Positions 8,345 through 41,600 of a stretch of 64,000 nucleotides of DNA are shown piece after piece. The notes under the pieces were generated by a model, which did not search any database, had not been told where the DNA came from, and worked only from the letters and a program-made list of their open reading frames with translations. The position numbers were made by a program, and so were the translations under genes. The DNA comes from Ascidia mentula (Eukaryota > Chordata > Ascidiacea > Phlebobranchia > Ascidiidae), in assembly GCA_947561715.1 (NCBI GenBank), contig OX387203.1:4340001-4404000 (forward strand). The letters are read 5' to 3'. The first letter of the stretch is position 1. Every line of letters starts with the position of its first letter.

Positions 8345-9328
8345 ATGAAGATTTCAATTGTGATTTTTCTTGCCGTGGTCGCTTGTTGCAATGCAGCCAA
8401 TTACTACCCAAGTAAGTTTAAATCGTTAAAAATGATCTACTTGTCATGGGGATGGCCAAATAATTTTGTTGTGCTTAAGTGACCTTCAACGATCTCGGAT
8501 GTTGGAAGGACACTGGAAACAGAGCAATCCCTACAAGAGAGGGAGATTCGATTCTTGATGGAGCAAGTTACCAAGCAAGAGTGAATGCGATCGCAAAATG
8601 TGCCAGAGTCGCTCATAACAATGGAGATGACGTATTCGCTGTCCAGGTATATTTCCTTCAACGACATCAGTTAGTATTGTGCCATAGCTGTTTGGATAAA
8701 AATCTCACAAAAGTTGCAAGCAAGGTTTGATACGCAGAACTCATAAACTATTGGAATACATTGCATTCTTTGGCAGCACGGAGGTTGGTGTGCGAGTTCT
8801 GCTACAGCAAGAAGCACTTACAGGAAATACGGAACAAGCACAACTTGCAAAACTGACGGAGAAGGTGGACCTTGGGGAAATCAAGTTTACGAAATCGACA
8901 GCATTTCACGAGGTAGGAAAATAGTTAAAAAAAATAAAGTACGAATATACCACCAGTTATGCCTTATCTTCGGAACTGTGTAATTCATTGGTTTATTGAC
9001 GTTAATGTTTGGTTTATTAGTGTCACTTACCAACTTGGGTTGTTGGCGGGACACTGGAAATCGCGCCATCCCCACCCTAGAAGGATTGGACCGAGTTTTG
9101 GACGGACCTTACCAACAACGCCAAGAAGCGATCGCTAAATGTGTGCAAGCCGCCCACGCGAGAGGACACAACGTCATTGCGTTGCAGCACGGTGGTTGGT
9201 GCGCTGGATCACGTGACGCAGTACACACATACAAGAAGTATGGTGCGAGCGGTGCTTGTGGCAATTCTGGAAAAGGTGGACCTTGGGCGAACCAAGTTTA
9301 CCGAATCGACATTGAAGTTACCACGTAA
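8345..9328 (+). CDS. Gene C: secreted protein with two GCW/GGWC domains
   Basis: Closest paralog of gene A, predicted 225 residues. Coding exons are 8345-8411 (signal peptide, MKISIVIFLAVVACC start), 8480-8646, 8777-8912 and 9021-9328; lengths 67, 167, 136 and 308 equal those of gene A. The two four-cysteine domains and the intron asymmetry (domain 1 split, domain 2 intronless) are conserved. The stop TAA at 9326-9328 lies inside the donor-like GTAAGT at 9325. If that donor is used, exon 9611-9641 adds a short tail ending AYH, as in gene A. Expected to be secreted; molecular function unknown. Confidence 0.85.
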
Positions 9329-10368: not shown

Positions 10369-11649
10369 TTAAACTGAACTTCCTACTTGCACATTGTATA
10401 CATTACTCCTGCACGCGTTTTGAAATGCCGATTTATTCCAGTTGAGGTAAAAACTATTCTTTACTTTCTCCCTCTGGCCCAACTCGTTTTCTTGGACAAC
10501 CGTGTAATCCACAGGAAAAGCATTTAACGAGTCTCCATCGCAACCCTCCGAAAGCTTTAAACCGAAACTGTACGACAGGACGTCATCATCCCTAAGAGTT
10601 TGACGACTGACAAGTTGATCCAAGGGCCTGAATGTGATATGTTCCGATTCCGAGAATAAGTTTAAGCGCAGGTCGTAGGTGGGGTTATAGCGGAATTTGT
10701 GGACTTTGATGCAAAGTTTGTCGTTTTCGTGAAGTTTGGTTATTTCGTTAAAGGAATTTTCACTGCTGATTAGGAGGTACCAGGTAACTTCCATTGCCCG
10801 TTCACAAATCCACGTTTTGTATCCGAACGTGGTTAGTTTCCAACCGACATTGCCACTCACACTTTCTGCGTGCTCTATGGCAACTGCACGGTCGGAAAAA
10901 TGGTTGGCTTCGTATTGGATTTCCCCATTGACTCCCAGAGTTGTTTCAGATTCGTGTTTCCATGGCAAGTTTTCGTTTTGTCGAACAAAGACGAAAACTT
11001 TTGCCGGTTTCACTTTGGAAAGGGAAAAATAAGGGCTTTTAACGTAGACGTGAAATTTGTTCTTGAATGTAGTTCCGCTTGGTTGACCGCGCAGAACCGA
11101 CGCCACGCTGACGTAGACAGCATTTCCCACACTAAATGTTTTCAGGCTTGGCTGCAAGCAAACCTCAAAATTGACGTTTTCTGACTGAGGACAAGGTGGG
11201 AACGTGATTTTATACTCCTTGAGGTTAAATTGCTGTTCCGACAATTCCGTTTTTGTTACTGGCAAACTCCGTTTCATGTTTTTTTTGGTTTTAGCTGCAT
11301 TGTGATTTTGAGAACTGTATGTAGAGTTGTTTTTGCAAAGGGACTTGATCATTTCTTCCGCTGCTTTTCTTTCAAACCAAGCCACCATCAACTTGCCCAA
11401 CTTGCCGACTTGATACAGGAGAAATCCACATATCACAGACAAAGCTATCAAAACCACCAAAACCAACACATCAGTAAAGAACAAATTTTCTTTTCGATGA
11501 GTTTCATTTTCGATCAATTCTTCGAGGGCCTTGCTTGATGATGCAAAGTATGTTATATCCGTGATTTCTGTCTGCGTTGTCCAGTATAGCTTTCCTGTAG
11601 AAGAGTCAATGTGTACCAACAAGCGTTTGTCCATTGATAAAAACTTCAT
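10369..11649 (-). CDS. Membrane-anchored ZU5/UPA-like protein 1
   Basis: Single open frame of 426 residues. An N-terminal region of about 56 residues is followed by one strong transmembrane segment (about 57-80) and a basic stretch. A ZU5-like beta-rich domain spans about 140-260, recognised from the run of ITFP, the Q/EPSG turn and the paired strands ending in LGVNG. A UPA-like region follows from about 270 (TWYLL...FYLNW near the end). HFSD at 250-253 resembles the F|S self-cleavage site of ZU5/FIIND modules in PIDD1, NLRP1 and CARD8; cleavage here is inference. There is no death, CARD or ankyrin region. Positive charges after the membrane segment favour a cytoplasmic ZU5 part. Paralog of the gene at 13066-14301, same strand. 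An upstream 5' exon cannot be excluded. Confidence 0.75.
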   Translation of the reverse strand: MKFLSMDKRLLVHIDSSTGKLYWTTQTEITDITYFASSSKALEELIENETHRKENLFFTDVLVLVVLIALSVICGFLLYQVGKLGKLMVAWFERKAAEEMIKSLCKNNSTYSSQNHNAAKTKKNMKRSLPVTKTELSEQQFNLKEYKITFPPCPQSENVNFEVCLQPSLKTFSVGNAVYVSVASVLRGQPSGTTFKNKFHVYVKSPYFSLSKVKPAKVFVFVRQNENLPWKHESETTLGVNGEIQYEANHFSDRAVAIEHAESVSGNVGWKLTTFGYKTWICERAMEVTWYLLISSENSFNEITKLHENDKLCIKVHKFRYNPTYDLRLNLFSESEHITFRPLDQLVSRQTLRDDDVLSYSFGLKLSEGCDGDSLNAFPVDYTVVQENELGQREKVKNSFYLNWNKSAFQNACRSNVYNVQVGSSV

Positions 11650-13065
11650 TTTAAGACCTAACAGAACACTGGATTTCCACTTAACGAATTTCTATAAAAT
11701 GTATGGCCTACAACAATTGCATCCTTCGTGGAACAACTTATTAAACATTGGAAGAATAATGTTTATACTCCGAATGCACTAATGTGGTACGTGTTAATGC
11801 TGCATTAAAGACACATACAAAAAATGACTGCTTTTTGTGCACACAGTTTACGGATATAGCGGCGAAAACCCAGTATAAATGTTTGCCCACTCGACGTTCA
11901 AAACCACCACACAGCCTTGCAGAAGAAGGAAAAGTACCTATTGGTTGCCACCCGCTTAAACTTACCTAGGTCGTCATGGTAATGAGCCCCAATAGTGAAA
12001 TGTTACTGCCACTGGTTTCCTGTGCAGCACCGTTCCTGAATTTTGAAGTGATAATTGTGATTCTGTGGTTTTCTGTTGTAGTTGTGAAGTTATGTACAAC
12101 TAAAATAGAAAAATGCGACTCTCCACCATCATCACATTTGGTTTTATGATTAAACTCATCAGTTTCACTGCTGAAACGTTAATTAGGTCAAAAAATACAA
12201 AATCCTGACGAAATCGGTGCCAACAGCGTTGTTGGGAATTGCATTATCAAAATCTCCAGAAACATTTCATTTGCAATTGCACGTAATTCATTTAGGCAAT
12301 ATTTGGAAACAACTTCGACACTTTGTCTTAGCTTAATCCGGCTTTCTAGGGTGGTAAAACGTGCATATTGTTGGTGCATTTTGGAAAGAAATCTGAGAAA
12401 ATATTTAACGATAACTTGTGCGCTAAAGCACGCCGGTTAGCCACCATGCTGCGTGTTTTGAATGATGTTTTGATTTTATTTGTCCAATATATGCAGCTTG
12501 TTAGAATTCGCGATTTTCTCCAGGTGTAACCCCGCTGCAAAAGTATACCTCCGCGGTTGAGCGCTGTTAAATCGAACGTACAATCTTGAATTATCGAAAT
12601 GCCCAGAACATAAAATGAACAAGAAATAAACATGCCATGAGATAATCTTATAAAAATGGTGCCAAATATTCACATACAATTATAATAGTCCGCTGCAGAC
12701 CTAAGGTCCGGCAAAACGTTATACATTTAGGACAGTTGAATCACTTGCTGCAGTCGTGTGGATGCATACGGTTTAAATTGCCGCTGGTGAAAAAAGTAAC
12801 AGCAGTTCGGGTAGCTAAACAAGTCTGTGTTTGTCTGGGTGAGGCACCCGCAAAAAGTTTCCGGGAAATCACCGTCTGGTGTTATTCGTGATTTTCCCCT
12901 GGTTATTGTGCGTTGTGTTGCGCAAGAAAATACATTAAAGGGGCACTGCTCATGCTATTGTACTTTCTTCCGACGAGTCTCTAAAATACATTGAAAACTA
13001 CGTGCAAATTTTCACAGAATATTACTTTTTGAACCTTCAAATAGTTGTAGCATTCTTAGGTCCTT
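11650..13065. other. Intergenic region between the two ZU5 genes
   Basis: About 1.4 kb with only short, overlapping, unsupported frames on both strands. Probably holds the promoter of the 10369-11649 gene and the 3' flank of the 13066-14301 gene. No repeat or RNA gene recognised. Confidence 0.4.
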
Positions 13066-14301
13066 TTATGTGTCCACAATTGCATTTTGTGTAGAATGCG
13101 TTGAAGGCTCCCTTTCAGTGAAATAGTTTGCTATCGTCCCGCCAAAATGAAGATGGTTGTTTTCACCTTGAACTATGATATTGGTTTCCTGCTGGAGATC
13201 CGTCCAGTGCACGTAAAATCTTCCGTCGATCAGCGGGTTTTCCAGTTGTTTTACTGCGTAGGTAACCGTAGAATTTGGGCGTTCCTCATTTTCTGATTGA
13301 AGGAGGAACTTGGTAGGAAGAGACATGAGTTGACGTAGGCGACTGGCTGGAACCTCAACGTTGTTACGGTCAACCGTTGTTTCGTCTCCACCGAGTTCAA
13401 GGGTCAAGCTGTGATCAAGCGCGACCCTTGTAGTGTGATAAGGTATCGCTTCTTCCAAACCCATATTCTGGTCGCGAACACGGTTGTATGTAAGTTCATC
13501 CATGCGATCGATCAGGTACCACGTCATGTCTCTTCTGCGACCTCCAGGCGAACGCATGTAAGCAAATGTGGCAATTTCCCTGCCAACGATCGGTGCGTTT
13601 GAGCTGCTCACCACTACCTCGCGATCGGAGAAGTGATCAGCTTTAAAGGAAACTTTTCCATTCACTCCGAGAGACGAAATTGACTCAAATTCCCAATCAA
13701 ACTGCTCGTTATGTCGGACAAATACACTCACAGGGACAGGTTGGAGCGTTGATTTGGCAAAGAAGCTACTTTTTAAAGTGACCTCAAACGGTTTTGAAAA
13801 CTTGATTCCGGAAGGCTCACATCTCAAAATGGGGGCAATGCGAAATCCATCCTTTGTAGATATTGATTCATAGTCATATGAATAAACGGATAAAGTAAGA
13901 GTTGTTTTTTCTTTGACGGACTCTTTAGGAAACGTAATTTTGCAAAAACCAACGTCTACAATTCCCCCTTTTGCTGTCAAATCATGTGTCGTAGAGATTC
14001 GACTTTTTACAAATGCGCAATTTGATTGTTTTCCAAAAACAACTTTTTCTGTTCTTTGTGTTGTACTGCACACAGAACCGACCGACAGAAACAGAAAAAC
14101 AATCAATACCAGAACTAAATACACAAAGCCAACCCAGAAGGGTCGAAAAATATAACGCTCTTCGAATTTACTGCTCTTTTTGATTGATTCTTCTTCTGGA
14201 AAAGTATCTGTGTCGTCGTCAGGCGATGCGAGAGTTGCATCAAAGTCTAATTTGCAATTATCGCTCGAAGCTTGGACCTGTGAACAATGATTTGTTGTCA
14301 T
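13066..14301 (-). CDS. Membrane-anchored ZU5/UPA-like protein 2
   Basis: Single open frame of 411 residues, paralogous to its neighbour. An acidic N-terminus (SPDDD...EEES) and a basic patch precede one transmembrane segment (about 54-77). ZU5 spans about 111-230 and is the clearer of the pair: GGIVDVGF, ITFPKESV, the CEPSG turn and FEVTLKSSFF are typical of UNC5/PIDD/ankyrin-type ZU5. HFSD at 223-226 sits where ZU5/FIIND proteins self-cleave. A UPA-like region starts near 255 (MTWYLIDRM) and ends with FYVHW near 375. No death domain. The basic residues before the membrane segment leave topology ambiguous. Head-to-tail with the other copy, so likely local duplication followed by strong divergence. 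Confidence 0.8.
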   Translation of the reverse strand: MTTNHCSQVQASSDNCKLDFDATLASPDDDTDTFPEEESIKKSSKFEERYIFRPFWVGFVYLVLVLIVFLFLSVGSVCSTTQRTEKVVFGKQSNCAFVKSRISTTHDLTAKGGIVDVGFCKITFPKESVKEKTTLTLSVYSYDYESISTKDGFRIAPILRCEPSGIKFSKPFEVTLKSSFFAKSTLQPVPVSVFVRHNEQFDWEFESISSLGVNGKVSFKADHFSDREVVVSSSNAPIVGREIATFAYMRSPGGRRRDMTWYLIDRMDELTYNRVRDQNMGLEEAIPYHTTRVALDHSLTLELGGDETTVDRNNVEVPASRLRQLMSLPTKFLLQSENEERPNSTVTYAVKQLENPLIDGRFYVHWTDLQQETNIIVQGENNHLHFGGTIANYFTEREPSTHSTQNAIVDT

Positions 14302-38602: not shown

Positions 38603-41600
38603 CTATCCAACTTTTTTTTTCCAAAAATATTTGAAGAAGAACCCGGAATTAGATTCCGTTTCCATTTGCGGAACCTTTAGACAATCACTATATTCACGCC
38701 CATAAAACCAATCGTAAAGGGAAGATACAATTCGCGGCTTCTCTGTGTTGGTGTTGTTCTTATTTTCGTGTAAAATCCTACATAATTTGCAAAATCCGGT
38801 CAGTTTTTCTCTACCTTGAAATTTTGGCACACTCTTCATCCAACTTAAATACTCCTTATAAGCGGTATCGTTTTTGTCTAGATAGTTTAAATAATCGGCT
38901 AAGTCTTTGGTCGAGTTAAAATCAGCAGCGTATATAAATGAAGTTGGAGACGGCGCTACAAGCTCATAGTCTTTCTTAGGTGGCCCGAGCACCACTGGCA
39001 CAGTGCCGTGTTTTAATGCGTTGTCCCAAAACTTCTCAGTAATGTAGTCTTTGCAGTTCCATTGGTTTTCAAAGGCGAGATAGAACTTGTACTTGTGATT
39101 TTCGAAGTCATCTTTGATGTTGTCAAAACATCCCCCACCTAGATCCACCTGAAGTCCGTTGTCAATCAGTTCCATGACGAAGCTCTTTCTTTCTCGGGCG
39201 TGTGGCATGACTTCGCAGTTTGACACAACCCACAATGCCATGCGAGTTTTGTTGCGAACGAAGTGATCTAATTCAGTTGCGTTTCGTGTCAAATTCTTGT
39301 GCTGGGACCACAACGAATACGTAGTTCCGTACGGGCACCAGACATCGGAATCTCTTCTGAAGACGCATTATTTGTTAGAAGTTTATCTGTACGGTATAAC
39401 CACAAGTCAACTATCCGGTCAAATAGGCCTTGATGGGTAACACTTAGTCATATTGAGTAAAGACATCAAGGGACTGTCAAGCCACAAATCGAAAGTCAAA
39501 TTTAGACCATTTGCGTACAGGTATATCTGTTTATTCAAATGTTGTGCGAATACGAATAACCCAAAAAGAACAATAGTTTTTTTGTCTGTGGCGGTTGATT
39601 CAAGTCGGTGGCGATGAAAATTATCTTTCTATCTGTCATGAATTGTGGCCCAAAAATGCCGTCTATTTAGCATTTGATTCTTAAAGCACTTTTTCGAACA
39701 ACGTGTTTGTTTTTTTCCTTTGAAAAGCATTTGTAGACGTTCTTCGTTACATACCTGTAGCTCATCGTAAGATTAAAAAAACCATCAAACTCCCTTAATT
39801 TCATGTTTCGCAGGTGATAAATAGCGACAGGGCCTTCCCCGGTGTACCAAACGTAATACTGATCCAACCGTCTACATTCAATAAATTAACATTTTTAACA
39901 GTTGGTGTTGATGCAAGAAACTACTTGCCTCTGTCGTGGAGCTAACCGGAAAATTGGATCATTGAAATGAAACACCAGCGCTTTTGTATTGTTCAGACTA
40001 GCCTGCAAAAAGGAATGTTATTATAAGGGTTCAAATATTAAATGTGCCGTATCAGTCTTTAAATGTCTACGAACTGAATTCTCTTAATTTGGCACTCTTT
40101 TAAAAAGACTGACTTTTGTGTTGAAAAATACACTAGCTTTCGCGAGTACCTCTCGCTTTATCAGGTGTAAAAATGATAAGGGTTTTAAAGAACAATTGAA
40201 TTTACAGAAAAAAATAAACCATTGTGTTTTCGTGTACTTGGTGAGACTTCTTGAAACAGTAAATTAATTTACTAAGTTGAGGTCATGTAGAGTTTTTCCC
40301 AACAAACAAAGGAATTACATAACATGAAAATTGGGACAGATTTAAGTTTTTTTTATTATTTCTTGGCCAGTTATAACAACTGTCCACAAAAATGACTTTA
40401 GCTGTTAAATTAATTGCTCGTTTCTGGAATAATCTGGATTTTTATGACCATACCCGTCTTATATTGTGAGAAATAACGCAACTTCCGCACTTTTTAGGCA
40501 ACTGTTTCATCTCTTCGATTAAACCGTATTCGGGATTCATCACTAAAATAGTCAACTGAAAAAGTAAAAATTAAAGGTTCAAAACACAGAAAACAAAACC
40601 AAGATTGTTCCACGAAATGAACCGGTCTACGTTTATGTTCAAAATTTTTGTAAATTGAAATGAAAATTATTTTCTTTTTAGGGTAAGACCATCAAAAATT
40701 ACCTTGCTGAGGTCTACGTTGTGTATGGATTCAGGGTACCTGGGCGGCGTTGCTTCCTATGAGAAATTGTTGTTAAATACGAATTTATTTAACATGGAAA
40801 ACAAGAAAACGCAACCATGTTGACTTTATGTGGTCGTGTACATCCAAAATAGAGTCAAGCGTTGTTAGCTCCATTATTGTGAATGTGCATTTTAGAAACA
40901 CAGTACTGTTTCATGCAACGGCATGATTGGCAGGATCGCCCCACTACGCAGGTCCTTACTTCGAGATCATTAGGTTTACAGGCTTCGCAGTCTATGCATT
41001 GCAGCCTAGCTGGATCAGCTGATTTTCCCGACAAGTCGGAGCGAGATTTGCAAAATCAAGCTCCCGGTCAGGTTTGAATTCACGACCCTGGGCTAACCAG
41101 TCCTAACGCTCTATCAACTGGATAAAGAGGCTGATCCAGCTGGGCTGCAATGCCTGGGCTGCGAAGCCTGTATGTAAACCTTTTAGAAACACCCTATATT
41201 TTTGACGGCCTCATTCTGGTTATATATACGCGACTTGCTTCTATACGTCATGGTACTAAAACAGCCATGTTTGACATGGTTTTTAAATGTAAACACGTGC
41301 CAACACGTATATCGCTAGTAACATCGGTCCGAGCAGGCATATGTGCGTATAACCTAAGAATAAGAACTACAACACGACGAAGTCATAAACTCCAATAAAA
41401 GCAGAATCGCGAGTAACAAAAGCGATAGATGTTAAGTTCGTTTATTGGCCGCAGCAAGTGACTTGCTTATAAGACCTATACCGGGTCGGCCGGTATTTTA
41501 TCCTTTAATTCTTCAGTCAAACAAACTACTTGGCATGATTCAGAAAAACTTAGGGCCGCTGTAAAAGAGATTGGGAACAGTAGCATTATGCAGTTAAGGC

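Follow-up and report, generated by a model that had tools for sequence, protein, structure and literature searches.

A stretch of 64,000 nucleotides from the ascidian Ascidia mentula (contig OX387203.1, hereafter the window) carries two single-exon genes on the minus strand, P0002 and, downstream of it on that strand, P0001. Each encodes a protein with a transmembrane (TM) segment, a ZU5 domain, a presumed UPA region and a short tail (Table 1). They are the two longest of the three closed stop-to-stop open reading frames (ORFs) of at least 140 amino acids (aa) in the 64 kb window. A preliminary description of this DNA had reported both as intronless frames, and they were recovered as such, with 426 aa for P0001 and 411 aa for P0002. 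An in-frame TGA lies immediately 5' of the P0002 ATG, and the nearest in-frame stop of P0001 lies 15 codons 5' of its ATG. AATAAA signals start about 277 bases past the P0001 stop codon and about 585 bases past that of P0002. The two proteins are 34% identical across 189 aa.

Table 1. Features of the two genes in the window (positions are those of the window; all on the minus strand).
Feature	Position	Strand	Remarks
P0002 gene (group B)	13066-14301	-	single exon, 411 aa, TM-ZU5-(UPA)-tail
P0002 TM helix, residues 52-75	14077..14148	-	AlphaFold helix, block pLDDT 66 and 77; hydropathy 2.83
P0002 ZU5 domain, residues 98-224	13630..14010	-
P0002 HFSD (H223-F224/S225-D226), predicted self-cleavage site F/S	13624..13635	-	strand-loop-strand in model
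P0002 presumed UPA region, residues 225-368	13198..13629	-	position after ZU5; conserved WY, L.L, F, F, W
P0002 C-terminal tail motif TNIIVQGENNHLHFGGTIANY	13123..13185	-	recurs in five further loci, one truncated
P0001 gene (group A)	10369-11649	-	single exon, 426 aa, TM-ZU5-(UPA)-tail
P0001 TM segment, about residues 59-80	11410..11475	-	hydropathy 2.73 for residues 59-78
P0001 ZU5 domain	10897..11268	-	by alignment
P0001 HFSD (H250-F251/S252-D253)	10891..10902	-	same alignment columns as in P0002
P0001 presumed UPA region	10432..10896	-	by alignment
P0001 C-terminal tail NVYNVQVGSSV, RHIM-like core VQVG	10372..10404	-

Ten flanking open stretches were scanned against Pfam to an E value of 0.1 without a match; they are ten of the 23 minus-strand open stretches of at least 55 aa, mostly the longer ones (at about 7.6-10.4, 11.6-13.1 and 14.3-17.0 kb). 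A classical UNC5-like architecture added through extra exons was rejected for the stretches scanned. The ZU5 module appears, as originally described, to stand alone behind a single TM segment.

A gene family on one chromosome

Searching the whole genome with P0001 returned 15 matches, grouped into 13 loci, and a search with one tail added a fourteenth, a 5'-truncated copy at 8.1927 Mb; as the full-length query was P0001, 14 loci is a lower bound. The genes had been described as a pair, which holds for the two ORFs of the window but understates the family: all 14 loci lie on one 19.9 Mb contig (C71), in four clusters at 1.13, 2.13, 4.35 (the window pair) and 8.16-8.20 Mb. Eleven, the window pair included, retain intact single-exon frames of 337-509 aa, and the other three are broken, L027 by stops, a copy at L023 (2.127 Mb) by a frame break and one by truncation. 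The broken pair at 8.19 Mb is ordered as the window pair is, and the block was therefore probably duplicated; in this broken duplicate (L027, 3460-3873 and 5572-6821, plus strand) the first member is truncated and the second carries stops.

A tree built from the 11 intact sequences unites P0001 and L023b as group A (support 100/100), P0002 and four others as group B (80/86) and three members as group C (74/78); L023c is a long branch. The ratio of nonsynonymous to synonymous substitution rates (omega) is 0.22-0.54 in five of the seven pairs tested, at 47-98% identity (0.22 for P0002 and L025a); the synonymous divergence is saturated in the other two, P0001 with L023b among them.

The ZU5 fold

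By the fold of the model, the domain of P0002 is a ZU5 beta-sandwich; in P0001 the domain is placed by alignment. The clear fold matches of the model are ankyrin ZU5s; the matches also include the GAIN domains of CD97, BAI3, CL1 (latrophilin-1) and BAI2, as well as UNC5b and NLRP1, and all stop at or before residue 240 of P0002. By sequence, Pfam ZU5 (PF00791) matches P0002 with an E value of 0.0054 and 17.4 bits, against a curated cut-off of 21, and does not match P0001; the highest score among the paralogs is that of L023c, at 20.1 bits. Searches of solved-structure sequences, with single proteins and with the full 11-row profile, gave no ZU5 match. A profile of the ZU5 part did recover ankyrin-2 (whole-sequence E 0.0055 and 0.01); this was discounted, as no single stretch scored better than E 7 and the unrelated PTBP1 appeared at 0.046.

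No leucine-rich repeat (LRR), second ZU5 or death domain was found among the Pfam matches of the family ORFs or of the ten flanking stretches. The same ORFs and stretches gave no Pfam match to an Ig/TSP ectodomain, and the N terminus is short. The Pfam matches of the family contain neither TRADD-N nor, in its ORFs, a CARD, and no cysteine column is invariant across the family alignment. Elsewhere in the genome, the PIDD-type Peptidase_S68 gave nine matches, none above the cut-off and none on C71. Three near-copies of a ZU5 exon (IDVDGCKLSIPSGALD...) were observed on a different contig, C69 (L028 4337-4735; L029 1738-2019 and 4719-5030, minus strand); they apparently come from a different, multi-exon gene family and have no HFS in the stretch read.

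The HFS motif and the predicted cut site

HFSD occurs once per protein and at the equivalent place in both, as first described. In the whole P0002 model HFS falls at the break between strands 216-223 and 226-232, and in the crop model between strands 119-126 and 129-135 (crop numbering). The superpositions are given by their first and last residues, so that end gaps are possible for all but CL1. The CL1 row ends with F224 on residue 837, the P1 residue of the triad H836-x-T838. The BAI2 row ends with 234 on 921, and an ungapped count equates H223-F224-S225 with H910-L911-S912 (for both triad positions see PMC13062082). The UNC5b row ends with 234 on 687; the same count places F224 on L677, reported as the equivalent of the P1 Phe of CARD8 (PMC3210808). 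The NLRP1 row ends with 235 on 978, and counting back arrives one residue off its F968|S969 cut. These superpositions thus support, at the level of the model, the position of HFS in the ZU5 cleavage loop that was first proposed, between two strands and superposed on its GAIN and UNC5b equivalents.

In the 11 intact paralogs the His and the Phe are invariant and the Ser is kept in 10. Across the 269 aligned columns (P0002 100-368), PSG and HFS alone are three-column runs kept in at least 10 of 11 paralogs; as judged from this alignment, the conservation of HFS is above chance. Both broken copies that span the cut region retain HFSD. The intact paralog L022a (L022 2367-3629, minus strand) has HFL for HFS, whereas its sibling L021a retains HFS, and L022a is a candidate for a naturally non-cleaving member. 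FIINDs have a separate catalytic His 26 residues ahead of their cut; at that place the 11 members have N, D, K or R. A cut would thus follow the PIDD/NUP98/GAIN mechanism, in which the His of the triad serves as base.

Membrane anchor and topology

The single TM helix described earlier for each protein corresponds to a strongly hydrophobic segment, one per protein, close to the N terminus (mean hydropathy 2.73 in P0001 and 2.83 in P0002 over 20 residues). In L024b and L025a the hydrophobic segment is weaker and sits right at the N terminus, and the ORFs of L021a, L025b and L026a lack one. Two paralogs (L024 5743-7200 and L025 456-1967, both minus strand) carry repeated N-terminal units, resembling SSxPRxxNEILPVCGPSxRPxxN, between the hydrophobic start and ZU5.

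By net charge over 25 flanking residues, the N flank is more negative than the C flank in five of the six TM members, L023c being tied; this favours a C-terminal part inside the cell (C-in). Lys and Arg counts within 15 residues favour C-in for L022a, L023b, L023c, L024a and the frame-broken copy at L023, with P0001 tied and P0002 pointing the other way. N-glycosylation sequons precede the TM segment in P0001, L023c and L024a, which suggests that the N terminus is outside. The ZU5 part is therefore placed, with moderate confidence, in the cytosol, a topology like that of UNC5. The P0002 model has no further long helix beyond residue 75, and hence no seven-transmembrane (7TM) region.

The C-terminal region

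The approximately 145 residues past the cut site retain WY, L.L, F, F and W. In the P0002 model this region has some beta strands at low confidence, with a predicted local distance difference test (pLDDT) below 40, and it gave no PDB sequence match with the 11-row profile and no Pfam UPA match in the 11 members. It is presumed to be UPA from its position alone. Of the ZU5/UPA module originally described, ZU5 thus stands by fold, if below the Pfam cut-off, and UPA is putative.

The presumed UPA region is followed by a tail of 3-90 residues, where a CARD or death domain would stand. The fold seems to be independent of the tail, since L023c is without one. The P0002-type tail has the consensus TNI(T/I)(I/V)(Q/E)G.NN...(I/F/V)G.T..NY in P0002 and five further loci. 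Group-A tails end in NVYNVQVGSSV, NVYNVQVGSSI and NVFNVQIGGVN, with PIQTGTVQIG in a frame-broken copy, and VQ[VI]G starts at most seven residues from the stop in all four group-A loci (two intact, two broken). None of the nine remaining intact tails contains the core [VI]Q[VIL]G, although in L024a a VQVG occurs where ZU5 begins. A random 40-aa tail would contain the core with a chance of about 0.5% (tail composition) or 0.2% (whole-protein composition), figures that apply to a motif picked post hoc in tails that are related. The tails of group C are N/I/G-rich stretches. Past this stretch, the three group C members (L021 3110-4123, L022 2367-3629 and L024 2982-4511, all minus strand) share G(R/L)PASR near the C terminus.

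Membership of the RHIM family was rejected: neither Pfam RHIM (PF12721) nor the fungal amyloid models matched seven tails at E values up to 10, and genome-wide no RHIM match exceeded the cut-off, the best (16.6 bits against 20) lying away from the family loci. A weak EAD10 match (E 0.042) appeared among the Pfam scans of the tails; in the literature, EAD10 is an adaptor domain of alpha+beta type. Queries with a single tail each from groups B and A, run to an E value of 10, found only family loci (six and four matches, respectively) and hence no partner gene bearing such a tail. Amyloid signalling motifs are described as short, diverse and poorly detected by profiles (PMC8086366, see also PMC7889193). 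Although such motifs elude profiles, the lack of a RHIM or fungal amyloid match leaves an amyloid nature of the tails unsupported on sequence grounds.

A possible self-cleaving membrane protein

The family, its ORFs, the TM segment, the ZU5 fold and the position of HFS in the cleavage loop are directly established; the topology, the identity of the UPA region, cleavage, release and what the freed fragment does are inferred. On this reading, which we regard as evenly balanced, the family consists of membrane-anchored, PIDD-type self-cleaving ZU5-UPA proteins with a releasable C-terminal fragment. The short N terminus would be outside or in the lumen, and the TM helix would hold a cytosolic ZU5. 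As the protein folds, a strained H-F-S loop would be cut between F and S, with the His as base and the Ser as nucleophile, through an N-O acyl shift followed by hydrolysis. The halves would remain joined, because the first strand after the cut is proposed to complete the ZU5 sheet. If some stress then pulled on the ZU5 half held at the membrane, or degraded or unfolded it, the C-terminal fragment (UPA and short tail) would be free to leave the membrane and act. Such a release would be analogous to the 'functional degradation' of NLRP1/CARD8, with the tail motif in place of the CARD or death domain.

It is possible, though clearly less probable, that the proteins are non-cleaving membrane scaffolds, in which ZU5-UPA is a binding platform as in ankyrin or UNC5 and the Phe of HFS merely anchors the loop. 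A structural anchor alone would not require the His and Ser that are kept beside the Phe, and UNC5b, for which we know of no self-cleavage, has Leu at the place of the Phe. Several observations nevertheless favour a scaffold and weigh against cleavage and release. The clear fold matches are ankyrin ZU5s, for which self-cleavage is likewise not known to us, and the frame of L022a is still open with HFL. According to PMC13062082, the triad alone is insufficient: BAI2, with a correct HLS triad, can remain uncut.

An extracellular, GAIN-like switch, with a type II anchor, the ZU5/GAIN-like part outside and a cut that frees the C-terminal fragment as a ligand, seems quite unlikely. The fold matches include GAIN domains, the GPS motif has the form H-X-S/T (PMC13062082), and group-B tails hold N-glycosylation sequons (NET, NIT). 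In P0002 there is also an excess of Lys and Arg on the N side of the TM segment within 15 residues, opposed to the cytosolic placement preferred above. The net charge over 25 residues, the sequons before the TM segment, the lack of an invariant cysteine column and the lack of a 7TM region in the P0002 model all stand against it. That these are decaying, functionless retrogenes, intronless copies maintained by recent duplication, is highly improbable: the genes are single-exon and three of 14 loci are broken, but the omega values are low and 11 frames are intact, even between members at just 38-42% identity.

Comparison with known systems

To our knowledge neither PIDD1 nor NLRP1/CARD8 has a TM helix, whereas the UNC5 netrin receptors are membrane-anchored ZU5-UPA proteins with Ig/TSP ectodomains. 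The combination in the window had been thought undescribed. Given UNC5, membrane anchoring of ZU5-UPA is not wholly new; what sets the family apart is that no death domain was found, a PIDD-type HF/S where UNC5b has Leu-677, and the tail motif.

PIDD1 resembles the family in its HF/S straight after ZU5, PIDD being cut there immediately after each ZU5 (PMC3210808), and differs in that the human protein adds LRRs and a death domain and shows two matches to ZU5 (PMC9573974). The FIIND of NLRP1/CARD8 is similar in that ZU5 is cut before a strand joining both halves and a C-terminal fragment can be freed; in contrast, the reported site is SF/S, the catalytic His stands apart, 26 residues upstream, and a CARD forms the C terminus. 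UNC5 shares the order of TM helix and ZU5, and the family F224 counts back to UNC5b L677, but UNC5 has a death domain and a Leu at the P1 place (PMC3210808). The GAIN domain of adhesion G-protein-coupled receptors carries its H-X-S/T triad at the corresponding position of the fold and cleaves itself while tethered to the membrane, as predicted for the family; GAIN is, however, extracellular and followed by 7TM (PMC13062082), while P0002 ends 186 residues past S225 without a long helix. Invertebrate immune-type proteins in which ZU5/FIIND (ZU5-UPA) is fused to TRADD-N are likewise predicted to self-cleave at ZU5 (Kaur 2021, PMC8195603), whereas the family has no Pfam match to TRADD-N. The RHIM/PP/BASS amyloid motifs are, like the tails with their group-A VQ[VI]G core, short N/Q/G/I/V-rich motifs at the protein end, but the seven tails scanned match no such Pfam model. 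As LRRs, a second ZU5, a CARD, a death domain, Ig/TSP domains and 7TM were not found in the scanned parts, the family is not filed as an orthologue of PIDD/NLRP1/CARD8, UNC5 or GAIN proteins. If cut, it would by analogy work like PIDD/NLRP1/CARD8.

An extension, unlikely in our view, is a membrane-tethered, inflammasome-like switch of tunicates, in which the freed UPA fragment of the self-cleaved protein would, through UPA contacts, assemble its amyloid-type tail (VQ[VI]G or NIxIxGxNNxIxIG), and the tail would seed cell-death or immune signalling. This would amount to NLRP1/CARD8 with an amyloid tail for the CARD and a TM anchor for the sensor. Should the tails polymerise, functional degradation and amyloid seeding would be joined in one protein.

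Self-cleavage of the ZU5 type connects PIDD with NLRP1/CARD8 and, at the level of the fold, with the GAIN domain. If self-cleavage and release hold, the family would be a minimal, membrane-bound version that lacks death-fold domains and has multiplied in a tunicate, and the cut-and-hold module would serve quite different outputs. It offers a small two-part system for direct tests of release, with L022a (HFL) as a candidate non-cleaving control.

A search of an open-access library found no account of TM-ZU5 proteins that lack death domains; where its papers treat ZU5 together with tunicates, the subject is giant ankyrins. Ankyrin repeats and ZU5 have been reported together in a kinase record from amphioxus (PMC9573974).

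Other observations

The third closed ORF of at least 140 aa in the window (38603-39367, minus strand) contains a clear fucosyltransferase domain (Glyco_transf_10, E 1e-50). An open stretch at 8996-9328 on the plus strand has a sub-threshold WSC match (E 0.0019) and is perhaps part of a neighbouring gene on the opposite strand. Tunicates are the sister group of the vertebrates; in COX1 of this genome (L050, contig C79), AGA/AGG stand as glycine at conserved places, which is the ascidian mitochondrial code.

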